From the NCBI RefSeq assembly GCF_000230715.2, contig NC_019792.1, positions 1,178,001 through 1,242,000 on the forward strand: a stretch of 64,000 nt of DNA, written 5' to 3'. Shown here one piece after another: positions 35,149 through 38,837 of the stretch. How positions within the stretch are numbered: position 1 is the first letter of the stretch; every line of letters begins with the position of its first letter. This stretch comes from Natronobacterium gregoryi SP2 (GTDB lineage Archaea > Halobacteriota > Halobacteria > Halobacteriales > Natrialbaceae). A program made the position numbers and the translations under genes. The notes under the pieces are model-generated. The model did no database searches, was not told the origin of the DNA, and worked only from the letters and a program-made list of their open reading frames with translations.

Positions 35149-36696
35149 ATGCAGGCACCCGAACCAGGGGAGTCCCTCGCGGATGGGGAGTCGATCGGGA
35201 CTGAGTACACCGCCACAGAACTGGCAGACGAAATCGGATTGACAGCGGAAAACGTTCGGTGGCGAAAGGAGTTCGTCGATTTCACCGCCGAGGACGAGCG
35301 ACGACTCGAGAGCCTGAACGACGTCGTCGACGCGCGTCACGACGACCTCGTCGATGCGTTTCTCGAGCCGCTCACGGGCTACGAACGGACTCGAGAGATC
35401 GTCGATCGGTCGCCACGGACCGAACAACAGCTCGGACAGATCGTCTCCGGCTACCTGCAGACGCTGACCGGTGGCAGCTACGATCGCCGGTACTTCGCCC
35501 ACCGGACGCGGATCGGGCGACTCCACGACCGACTCGAGATGCCGCGTTATTATTTCGGCGGGATGTTCGCGAACCTCAACACGATCTTCTTGGAGGAGAT
35601 CCGCGACGCCACGAAGCGCCAGGTGAAAGCTGCTCTCGAAGAGGACGGAGGAGAACGGACCGAAGAGGCTGTTCTCGAGGCGATCGACGACGGATTTTCC
35701 GATATGGCGGCAGTCGTTCGCGGGACGAATCTCGACATGCAGGTCGTCAACGACACCTACCTCCACTCCTACAGCAAGAGCGTGGAGGCTATCGAGGAGA
35801 AACGACAGGTCGCCGAACGCGTCAGGGAGTCCGTCGAAGACCTGCGGGAGACGACCGACTCCGTCGCCGGTCAGTCGACAGAGATCCAGCAACTCACGGA
35901 CGAACAGACCAGTTCGATAGCAGAGACGGCCGGCGAGGTGTCGGACCTCTCGGCGACTGTCGAGGAGATTGCCTCTACCGCGGAGGAGGTTAGCGCGACG
36001 ACCGAGAAAGCCGAACAGGTTGCGACCGACGCAGCCGGGACCGCCGAGAACGCGATCGAGGAGATGGAGCAGGTCGAAGACGCGACCGAAAACGTCACCG
36101 ACGACGTGCAGGCGCTACGGGAAAGCGTCGACCGGATCGACGAGATCGTCGAGGTGATCAACGACATCGCCGACCAGACGAACCTGCTCGCGCTGAACGC
36201 GTCGATCGAAGCCGCACACGCTGGCAGCGAGGGTGATGGCTTCGCGGTCGTCGCCGACGAGGTCAAGTCCCTCGCCGAAGAGTCACAGCAGGAAGCGTCG
36301 AACATCGAGCGTCGAATTGGTCGTATTCAGGAAGACACCCGAACGACCGTCGAGAGTCTCGAGCAGGCCAACGACGCCGTAGCGGACGCCGTCGGAGACG
36401 TTTCCGAGACCGTCGCTGGACTACAGCAGATCCGCGAGACGGTCGAAGAAGCGAGCGACGGGACTGGCGAAGTCGCCGCAGCGACCGACGATCAGGCTGC
36501 AAGCACCGAAGAGGTTGCGAGCATGATCGACAGCGCACTCGAGCAGGCACGGGCAGTGTCGGATCGGGCTGACGCGATCGACGAGGCGAACGATCGGCAG
36601 TCCGAACAAGTAGAGACGATCGCCGAGGAGGTCGGGGCTCTTATGCAGGTCGGCGACTCGTCCGAGACGGGCAGGGATCGACTTGCGAGGGACTGA
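35149..36696 (+). CDS. hemAT: HemAT-like globin-coupled aerotaxis transducer
   Basis: 515-residue soluble transducer. Residues about 40-190 form a globin-coupled sensor domain in which His126 (RIGRLHDRLEMP) is at the position of the proximal haem ligand. A methyl-accepting coiled coil follows, with tip ADQTNLLALNASIEAA near residue 345 and the VVADEVKSLAEES flank. There is no TM segment, as expected for HemAT, which senses O2 in the cytoplasm. ATG 35149 is preferred over the upstream frame start at 35101. The TGA stop is the first codon of the tandem TGATACGG repeats downstream. Confidence 0.9.
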   Translation: MQAPEPGESLADGESIGTEYTATELADEIGLTAENVRWRKEFVDFTAEDERRLESLNDVVDARHDDLVDAFLEPLTGYERTREIVDRSPRTEQQLGQIVSGYLQTLTGGSYDRRYFAHRTRIGRLHDRLEMPRYYFGGMFANLNTIFLEEIRDATKRQVKAALEEDGGERTEEAVLEAIDDGFSDMAAVVRGTNLDMQVVNDTYLHSYSKSVEAIEEKRQVAERVRESVEDLRETTDSVAGQSTEIQQLTDEQTSSIAETAGEVSDLSATVEEIASTAEEVSATTEKAEQVATDAAGTAENAIEEMEQVEDATENVTDDVQALRESVDRIDEIVEVINDIADQTNLLALNASIEAAHAGSEGDGFAVVADEVKSLAEESQQEASNIERRIGRIQEDTRTTVESLEQANDAVADAVGDVSETVAGLQQIRETVEEASDGTGEVAAATDDQAASTEEVASMIDSALEQARAVSDRADAIDEANDRQSEQVETIAEEVGALMQVGDSSETGRDRLARD

Positions 36697-36937
36697 TACG
36701 GGTTACTGTAACGATTTACCGGCGCAACCGCCGCCCGGGTCGCAGTTGTGCCGAAAATGACTTACAGTAAACCGTATGATACGGTTTGCTGTCCGTCAGT
36801 TCCGGCGGGCCCGCGAGCCCGCCTGCGGTCGCGCCGGGACATCGGTACAGTAGTCCGGGTGAGACCGATTGCTGTTTGCAGTTGCTCGCCAGACGGGGTC
36901 GGCGATCGGCGGGAACTAACTACAGTAACCCGACTCA
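36694..36937. repeat. Three tandem TGATACGG-family elements filling a convergent gap
   Basis: Element 1 is 36694-36779 (TGATACGGGTTACTGT to AAACCGTATGA). Element 2 is 36777-36863 (TGATACGGTTTGCTGT to ACAGTAGTCCGGGTGA), with strong arms GGCGGGCCCGCGAGCCCGCC. Element 3 is about 36861-36937 (GAGACCGATTGCTGT to ACAGTAACCCGACTCA). The leftmost TGA is the hemAT stop and the rightmost TCA, read on the minus strand, is the crcB stop. The three elements exactly occupy the space between two convergent genes. Confidence 0.85.
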
Positions 36938-37339
36938 GACGACGGCGACGACCGCCCACGCGAGTCCGATCGCCGTGAGCGAGACGAGCAGGTTCGCGGC
37001 GGCGTTGCCGACCGCACGCAGTTGCTCTCCGCGTTCGTACAACTGGACGGTTTCGACCGAGAACGACGAGAACGTGGTGAACGAGCCACACGCACCGATA
37101 CCGAGCAGTTGGATTGTCGACTCGTCCGCGCCGGCGAAGATCGCCAGTCCGAAGACGAAACTACCGATCACGTTCACGGCAAGCGTCGGCCACGGGAACC
37201 GCTCGCTCGAGAACTGCAGGTAGACCCAGTGGCGCAACAGCGCGCCGATGGCGCCGCCGGTGCCGACGAGGTGTGCGGGTTCGGGGTCGAGCGTGACCGC
37301 GAGTGCGTCGGCAAGCAGCGGCGGGGCGGCGACGCTCAT
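36935..37339 (-). CDS. crcB: CrcB/Fluc fluoride ion channel
   Basis: 134-residue four-TM Fluc-family channel that exports fluoride. Diagnostic segments are NVIGSFVFGLAI near residue 59 and GSFTTFSSFSVET near 85, which include the conserved Asn and pore-lining Phe residues. The gene overlaps its upstream partner by four bases (ATGA), so both subunits are made together. Fluc channels are dimers; paired genes usually form heterodimers. The stop codon is the end of a palindromic repeat. Confidence 0.95.
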   Translation of the reverse strand: MSVAAPPLLADALAVTLDPEPAHLVGTGGAIGALLRHWVYLQFSSERFPWPTLAVNVIGSFVFGLAIFAGADESTIQLLGIGACGSFTTFSSFSVETVQLYERGEQLRAVGNAAANLLVSLTAIGLAWAVVAVV

Positions 37340-37749
37340 GCCGTCTCACCTCCGGGGGACGATCGCACGCCGGCGGTAACGCGACGCGCGACGGACCGAC
37401 TCGCGATGACGGCCGTAAAGCCGATGCCGTAGTTGGCAGCGACGATGGCGAGTACCAGCATGGGGTCGGCGGCGGTGGCCGTCTGGACTGCGAACGTGCT
37501 GTAGGTCGTCAGCGAGGAGAGAAAGCCAGTCGTGAAGACGATCCGCGATTGTTTCCCGACGAGACCGGCGTACTCGGCCTCGTAGACGAGAAAGCCGAGA
37601 GCGAAGCTTCCGAGGACGTTGACGAGCAACACCGCTGGTACCGCCGCGAACAGCTCCACCGCGAAAAAGCGGAGGTTCGAACCGGCGAACCCGCCGATAG
37701 CGATCAGTGCGAGCGTCTCGAGTCGAACGAGTGGGTGATCGGTTGCCAT
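37336..37749 (-). CDS. crcB: CrcB/Fluc fluoride ion channel, second subunit
   Basis: 137-residue four-TM Fluc-family subunit. NVLGSFALGFLVYE near residue 43 and GFLSSLTTYSTFAVQT near 74 carry the family Asn, Thr and Phe residues. ATG 37749 lies about ten bases after a fluoride riboswitch on the same strand, so this is the first gene of a riboswitch-controlled two-gene unit. The two subunits differ enough for a heterodimeric channel. Confidence 0.95.
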   Translation of the reverse strand: MATDHPLVRLETLALIAIGGFAGSNLRFFAVELFAAVPAVLLVNVLGSFALGFLVYEAEYAGLVGKQSRIVFTTGFLSSLTTYSTFAVQTATAADPMLVLAIVAANYGIGFTAVIASRSVARRVTAGVRSSPGGETA

Positions 37750-37757
37750 AGCTGACT

Positions 37758-37832
37758 GGTAGACAGGGACCGTCAGCCGCCCACGGGTTCGTGCGAGCGC
37801 GGCAGTTGGGTCGGGCGGGCCCCATCGCCCGG
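37758..37832 (-). ncRNA. Fluoride riboswitch (crcB motif)
   Basis: Minus-strand sequence begins GGGCGATGGGGCCCGCCC (37830-37813), continues through AACTGCCGC and closes GGGCGGCTGACGGTCCC and TGTCTACC near 37758. This reproduces the crcB-motif core: the GGCGAUG..CCCGCC stem with the UGAUG-like UGACG segment that forms the pseudoknot and Mg2+/F- site, as in the Thermotoga petrophila aptamer. It ends about ten bases before the crcB start codon, suggesting control of ribosome access or early elongation. A covariance-model search (RF01734) would settle it. Confidence 0.88.
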
Positions 37833-37904
37833 TGGTAGGGGTCGATTCTCACAGGACCGGCATGAGGGTTGTGGAACGGGTGTCGACGGAAGGAAAGACA
37901 CAAG

Positions 37905-37921
37905 TTTAGACTCGCTCTAAA
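37905..37921. promoter_or_regulatory. Perfect inverted repeat, possible metal-regulator operator
   Basis: TTTAGACTCGCTCTAAA has six-base perfect arms around a five-base spacer. It ends seven bases before the ATG of the CDF transporter at 37929. In a leaderless haloarchaeal promoter this overlaps the TATA/initiation region, the usual place for a repressor such as a DtxR/SirR-like metal sensor. The regulator is not identified. Confidence 0.45.
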
Positions 37922-37928
37922 TCAGGGT

Positions 37929-38837
37929 ATGGTCGACCACAACGAGAGGGCCGGATTCGCGCGGGCAGCGTGGGTGAACGTCCTCGGGAATGCCGCAAAA
38001 ATCGTCGTCGAGGGTGCCGCAGGCCTCGTTTTCGGCAGCGTGGCCTTGCTCGCGGACGCGGCCCACTCGGTCGCCGATCTCGTTTCGAGCGTGGTCGTCC
38101 TCGTCTGGGGGAAGAGTGCCTACGACGAACCAGACGACACACATCCACACGGCCACGACCGGATCGAACCCCTGACGGCGCTGTTTGTCGGGGCCGTCCT
38201 CGCCGTGCTCGGACTGTCGCTGCTGTACGAGTCCGTCCAGGGGCTGCTCGTCCTCGATCCACCCGAGGCGAACCCCCTCCTGCTCGCGGCGCTTGCGTTT
38301 GCGATGGTCGACATGTACCTCGTCTACCGCTACACCGAGTACGTCAACGCCGACCTCGGCTCGACCGCGCTCGAGGCGCTCGCGGTCGACTGCCTGAACG
38401 ACATCTACACGACGATCGCCGCCGCCGTCGGGATCGTCGGCGTGTTGCTCGGCCACCCACTGCTCGATCCGATCGCCGGCGGACTGGTCAGTCTTCTGGT
38501 CGTCTCCCAGGGCGTCGAGATCGGCCGCGAGAACCTCGACTACCTGGTCGGCGCAGCACCCGACTCCAAGAAGCGAACGGAGATCACGGAGACGTTGCGC
38601 GCCCACCCTGCCGTCGAAGGCGTCCACGACCTCACAGTCTTCTACGACGGCACCGTCCTCGAGGTCGAGGTCCACGTCGAGGTCGACGGCGACATGCCGT
38701 TCCGTCGCGCCCACGATGTCGAGTCGGAGCTCGTAGACGATCTGCAAGCGACAGAGGACGTCGGGGACGCCCACGTCCATCTCGATCCGTCCGGAATCGG
38801 CGAGTGGAAAGCAATCTCCGAAGATCGAAGACCATGA
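37929..38837 (+). CDS. Cation diffusion facilitator (CDF) family metal exporter
   Basis: 302-residue proton-coupled exporter of divalent metals (Zn, Mn, Co or Fe; specificity not readable with certainty). The N-terminal half has six TM helices with metal-site motifs LLADAAHSVADLVSS near residue 38 and DCLNDIYTT near 155. The C-terminal cytoplasmic domain (about 205-302) contains the EVHVEVDGDM strand of CDF dimerisation domains. The ATG at 37929 is just behind the inverted repeat and is supported by it. The gene is divergent from the fluoride channel unit. Confidence 0.9.
   Translation: MVDHNERAGFARAAWVNVLGNAAKIVVEGAAGLVFGSVALLADAAHSVADLVSSVVVLVWGKSAYDEPDDTHPHGHDRIEPLTALFVGAVLAVLGLSLLYESVQGLLVLDPPEANPLLLAALAFAMVDMYLVYRYTEYVNADLGSTALEALAVDCLNDIYTTIAAAVGIVGVLLGHPLLDPIAGGLVSLLVVSQGVEIGRENLDYLVGAAPDSKKRTEITETLRAHPAVEGVHDLTVFYDGTVLEVEVHVEVDGDMPFRRAHDVESELVDDLQATEDVGDAHVHLDPSGIGEWKAISEDRRP

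Follow-up and report, generated by a model that had tools for sequence, protein, structure and literature searches.

The leader of the crcB1–crcB2 operon of Natronobacterium gregoryi SP2 carries a fluoride-riboswitch aptamer of the RF01734 class, confirmed at the level of sequence and fold, and this RNA probably forms, at the 5' end of the crcB1–crcB2 mRNA, a translational ON switch that works by anti-P3 masking of the start region and is independent of a Shine–Dalgarno (SD) sequence. The element lies on the reverse strand of the 64,000-nucleotide stretch of DNA analysed here (the window), and its features are collected in Table 1.

Table 1. Features of the crcB leader and operon, in window coordinates
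Feature	Position	Strand	Basis
Fluoride aptamer core	37766..37830	-	RF01734 27.4 bits; leave-genus-out model 73.2 bits; P1/PK1/P3 covariation
P1	GGCG 37829-37826 with CGCC 37817-37814	-	
PK1	GGGGCC 37823-37818 with GGUCCC 37771-37766	-	
P3, with long arm	GCC 37803-37801 with GGC 37778-37776	-	
Linchpin A40 (37773) and U48 (37765), both kept	37765..37773	-	Sequence; U48 in 64/65 loci
C41 in place of canonical U41, all Natrialbaceae-type copies	37772	-	Base counts over loci
GUCAGCU, proposed anti-P3 strand, abutting the start codon	37750..37756	-	Complementary to GGCUGAC (37778-37772)
TATA-like CTCATG, ~31-36 nt before P1	37861..37866	-	A+T peak; predicted start site
crcB1, 137 aa, predicted fluoride channel subunit	37336..37749	-	PF02537 E 5.5e-16; TTYSTF; positive charges in TM2-TM3 loop
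crcB2, 134 aa, predicted fluoride channel subunit, opposite charge pattern	36935..37339	-	PF02537 E 2.7e-25; TIGR00494 over cut-off

An aptamer below the Rfam threshold

The top RF01734 match of the genome is a full-length one, at 37757–37838 on the reverse strand before crcB (E 3.6e-5 in 1.3 kb, E 2.5e-5 in the whole genome). A sequence-only reading of this DNA had placed a fluoride riboswitch ahead of a two-subunit crcB operon and named an Infernal search with RF01734 as its check, a score below threshold counting as refutation; taken literally that outcome occurred, with 27.4 bits against a gathering score of 34, and scanning the window against Rfam at the gathering score finds nothing. Most family copies likewise fall below this score, the sister loci L010–L012 exceeding it at 35–39 bits. 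The riboswitch itself was nevertheless borne out by a leave-genus-out covariance model built exclusively on 23 loci from other genera, to which the window aptamer matches with E 2.3e-17; the runner-up in the 3.79-Mb genome has E 0.03. With the same model the element is found in 89 of 125 Natrialbaceae genomes and in 25 of 29 genera, so the RF01734 threshold is unsuited to this family, and the low Rfam score of the window element is probably due to its long P3 arm together with the family-wide change of U41 to C. The extent first proposed for the locus took in crcB1 and the greater part of leader and aptamer, and stopped at the 5' edge of P1 (37829/37830).

Covariation was scored for P1, P3 and PK1 in fixed-length rows holding the paired segments of copies from haloarchaea and methanogens. 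All three helices covary across the Halobacteriota: 97.0% of cells are paired, compared with 86.6% in shuffled rows and at most 60% with slid partners, and 62 two-sided changes are seen, compared with 17.4 in shuffled rows. The pseudoknot, whose failure to covary among relatives was also to have told against the riboswitch, shows two-sided changes at four of its six pairs, in variants that include GGGGCC/GGUCCC, GGAGUC/GACUCC, GGCGUC/GACGCC, GGAGUU/AACUCC and GAAGUC/GACUUC. The window thus combines P1, P3 and a covarying pseudoknot with an RF01734 match, and this match lies in the leader of crcB1, a fluoride-related gene.

Distribution among relatives

The family copies inspected precede crcB or have an insertion there, and the RF01734 matches at E < 0.005 in 60 relatives (L008–L029) all lie directly 5' of a crcB1–crcB2 pair. 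Across 391 Halobacteria genomes, RF01734 is matched in 66 (E < 5e-4) and crcB is present in 378; the fluoride riboswitch is common but patchy in this class. The nearest named relatives of the window belong to Halobiforma. Decaying riboswitches were noted in L037 (Halobiforma nitratireducens), L149, L159, L158 and L162, where the P1 loop is lost or the P3 arm carries a tandem GGTCGGCTG expansion, and a repeat, GATACGGYYTRCTGT, appears to have inserted in, and disrupted, the riboswitch of several Natrialbaceae (crcB leaders L040/L157, L148 and L161). This repeat resembles a dispersed palindromic repeat (TGATACGGNTTACTGT...) found at 36688–36935 in the window, just 3' of crcB2, which has about 40 further matches in the genome at 81–99% identity. 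A second fluoride aptamer (L064:1086-1390, and at the same place in L062) precedes the gene of a ~70-aa membrane protein beginning MGQQDT and adjoins the riboswitch–crcB operon; this protein is a candidate for a new fluoride-regulated small protein.

A substitution at position 41

Core bases were mapped onto the T. petrophila numbering, and every mappable one is present in the window RNA, the linchpin A40 and U48 included, except at position 41, which is C. The placing of the linchpin agrees with that described for the fluoride riboswitch (PMC8752731). Position 41 is C in 34 haloarchaeal loci, the window and all its sister loci among them; a further 30 haloarchaeal loci and 21 loci from non-halophilic Halobacteriota have U. 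Since the core is complete apart from this position, the window element is best described as a putative variant of the RF01734 class and not a canonical member, and the C41 form would presumably still bind fluoride. High intracellular KCl had been put forward as a point of interest for ligand binding here; a tie between the two is speculation, as other haloarchaeal families retain the canonical U41.

Promoter and transcript start

Over 57 loci, an A+T peak lies at -37 to -34 relative to P1, and the TATA-like words at this peak read CTCAT in the family of the window and GATATA, TTTATT or CATAAG elsewhere. Because archaeal promoter spacing sets the start about 26 nt past the TATA-like word, transcription is predicted to begin at most ~10 nt from the aptamer, which would then be the 5'-terminal element of the mRNA. 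Most sister loci have a well-conserved GTA[A/T]CC just before P1 (37831–37836), perhaps the transcript start, where the window has TACCACC instead. Further upstream, a perfect palindrome, TTTAGA-N5-TCTAAA (37905–37921), spans the start region of a divergent cation diffusion facilitator gene (37929–38837); it is the sole perfect copy in the genome, is seemingly retained in L012 and L018 with an altered middle, and is probably a metalloregulator operator.

The crcB pair

The two overlapping crcB genes described from the sequence are both recognised by PF02537, the start of crcB2 overlapping the stop of crcB1 by 4 nt (ATGA). CrcB1 proteins mostly have TTYSTF, and CrcB2 proteins TTFSSF. Over 60 pairs, with approximate loop boundaries, the mean number of K+R residues is 1.93 in the TM2–3 loop and 0.10 in the TM3–4 loop of CrcB1, against 0.07 and 2.07, respectively, in CrcB2. 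The two proteins are thus halves of opposite predicted topology by charge bias, the pattern of a heterodimeric Fluc, and would be expected to form a heterodimer. Known heterodimeric crcB/Fluc pairs share the two adjacent genes and the opposite positive-inside pattern, with no notable difference from the window pair; a pair of crcB genes is present in nearly all haloarchaea.

The start-codon region and a proposed strand exchange

The aptamer lies close to the start codon, U48 being 15 nt from the AUG in the window and 10–20 nt from it in 63 of 65 loci; the end of the Rfam match is 7 nt away, in keeping with the original estimate of about ten bases. The longest U-run in the leaders of C41 loci is 3, and an SD-like word is absent from 38 of 39 of these leaders, including that of the window. 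With 15 nt between aptamer and AUG and no U-run, intrinsic termination at the crcB leader is very unlikely, and the geometry favours the translational control that had been suggested.

Most of the spacer has diverged, but the five bases 5' of the AUG are conserved, with 0.8–1.5 bits of information at -5 to -1 and 0.1–0.8 at -14 to -6. They commonly read CAGC[C/U], whose complement, GGCUGAC, comprises the P3 3' strand and the bases that follow it. Of 52 intact loci, 37, representing 18 of 24 genera, have the motif no more than 12 nt from the AUG, and in 34 loci it occupies positions -5 to -1 exactly; among 12 crcB1 leaders from the same family that have no aptamer, it is seen in none (Fisher's test 5e-6, and 7e-4 when counted by genus). 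Directly 5' of the AUG, it occurs in 33 of 67 loci and at 1 of 254 control ORF starts, and a 7-bp anti-P3 helix is possible in 11 of 39 C41 loci and at none of the 254 control starts. In the window, GGCUGAC and GUCAGCU can form seven pairs in a row, and GGU/ACC prolongs the helix beyond a bulged A. The motif is missing from about 29% of loci, in some of which CAGC(C) instead lies just 3' of the AUG. L037 and L040, with CAGCC yet without an intact aptamer, are read as recent aptamer losses and were left out of the 12 controls.

These observations suggest the following mechanism. When fluoride is absent, the P3 3' strand (GGCUGAC) together with the first bases of the pseudoknot strand would pair with GUCAGCU and ACC just 5' of the AUG, disrupting P3 and the pseudoknot and hiding the start region. 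Fluoride and Mg2+ would lock P1, PK1 and P3, drawing GGCUGACGGUCCC off the start region, which would then be free for ribosome initiation without an SD sequence; CrcB1 and CrcB2 would be made by coupled translation and assemble as an antiparallel heterodimeric Fluc channel exporting fluoride. The ON logic follows from the incompatibility of the anti-P3 helix with P3 and PK1.

Predicted energies, which ignore fluoride, Mg2+ and tertiary contacts, are -40.5 kcal/mol for the free MFE of the window leader, -39.6 with anti-P3 forced, -34.5 for P1 and P3 without the pseudoknot, and -9.8 for the PK duplex. The anti-P3 state (-39.6) and the aptamer state (-34.5 plus the PK duplex at -9.8) are therefore close, and the computed values fit a poised switch. 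When control start regions were grafted to the aptamers, the competing folds were nearly as strong (median p 0.29; window p 0.16; p <= 0.05 in 9 of 33 C41 loci counted), making this a weak test that gives no energetic proof of the anti-P3 switch. An MFE test for a hairpin from the aptamer 3' segment to the AUG, a blunt statistic with 10 groups after strict de-duplication, gave Fisher p 3e-4 against shuffled spacers but 0.02 against natural starts, and was set aside. An association of U at base 23 with AUGGCA, in which the other P3 strand might pair with the start codon as in the window MFE, was rejected (Fisher p 0.06, kinship-confounded).

Counted in a fixed register, the anti-P3 helix has zero two-sided changes against its commonest pairs, the aptamer itself constraining its strand against variation. 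As two-sided changes are absent in this register and grafted starts give comparable folds in most loci, we infer the alternative helix and its ON direction, and with them a putative SD-independent translational switch, from conservation, complementarity and geometry and not from compensatory changes. In other haloarchaeal families this register is not enriched, a single locus of 28 having 6 bp or more. The L062/L064 lineage has a different pairing over the AUG itself, of 11 bp including AUGACU/AGUCAU; by reading of the sequences, GGCUGAUG pairs with CAUCAGCC in L060, and an SD lies opposite the PK strand in the second leader of L062/L064. Masking of the start site thus seems to recur across haloarchaea with more than one solution.

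Alternative explanations

That the element is a chance resemblance or a DNA operator, with no RNA involved, might be suggested by its score under the Rfam cut-off, but this is refuted for practical purposes by covariation and phylogenetic spread, and its probability is negligible. A fold that is intact but in which C41 has abolished or altered ligand sensing, leaving a fixed structural leader or a sensor of another ligand, has some points in its favour: U41 is reported to be highly conserved, its change to A abolishes the ligand response of the B. cereus switch (PMC11077080), and C41 is universal in Natrialbaceae-type copies. The other core bases, the pseudoknot and A40–U48 are nonetheless kept in ~25 genera, with a P3 loop that cannot be aligned, and the element precedes crcB wherever checked, so that loss or change of sensing is judged improbable.

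Control of transcription, by termination or pausing in the leader, would accord with most studied fluoride riboswitches, those of B. cereus and T. petrophila being of the terminator type (PMC11077080). In the C41 loci, a spacing of 10–20 nt and U-runs of at most 3 leave no room for a terminator; the terminator reading was rejected on these grounds, and transcriptional action in general has only a slim chance. The aptamer might instead gate translation while the CAGCC beside the AUG serves otherwise, the start being masked by diverse locus-specific folds. CAGCC could, for example, pair with the GGCUG that lies close to the 16S rRNA 3' terminus. The lack of two-sided changes in the fixed register agrees with such a role, as do the different pairings of other families (L062, with 11 bp over the AUG, L080/L085 and L070), but ordinary starts (1/254) and aptamer-less crcB starts (0/12) are without the motif, which is thus not a general initiation signal, and another role for CAGCC is considered unlikely. 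Masking by the anti-P3 helix in the window remains the favoured explanation. Its extension to the whole family, as a C41 subclass that would sense fluoride despite molar intracellular chloride and gate an SD-less start by swapping a P3 strand, falls a little short of an even chance.

Relation to known fluoride riboswitches and significance

The crcB RNA was described in 2010 from bacteria and archaea (PMC2864571). The window element shares P1, P3, PK1, the core bases, the A40–U48 linchpin and the crcB association with the RF01734 RNAs of Thermotoga petrophila and Bacillus cereus, and differs from them in C41, a long variable P3 arm, a sub-gathering score and the lack of a terminator. Pseudomonas and Burkholderia have fluoride riboswitches that act on translation (PMC13273304); as in those of Pseudomonas syringae and Burkholderia pseudomallei, the ligand would be expected to release initiation without termination, whereas the window has no SD sequence and the strand proposed to mask the start lies right against the AUG. 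A further translational switch is that of Thermococcus, as cited in passages of PMC8241225 and PMC11077080, and a 2021 paper calls it the only natural archaeal riboswitch with experimental proof (PMC8241225). The Thermococcus kodakarensis riboswitch (PMC4247193) is likewise archaeal and presumed translational, and is fluoride-responsive according to a passage of PMC8241225 citing Speed 2018; unlike the window element it precedes TK0513, not directly crcB (TK0514), and its host is a hyperthermophile. No report of a haloarchaeal fluoride riboswitch was found in the literature searched; C41, the mostly sub-threshold Rfam scores and the proposed SD-less start masking mark this one as a variant.

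The candidate switch is present in most of a haloarchaeal family and has been overlooked at the standard Rfam threshold, and in the window it alters a base whose change to A kills a bacterial switch. The crcB leader offers a direct test of riboswitch-controlled initiation without a Shine–Dalgarno sequence and, if the proposal is true, would represent a natural SD-independent translational riboswitch.
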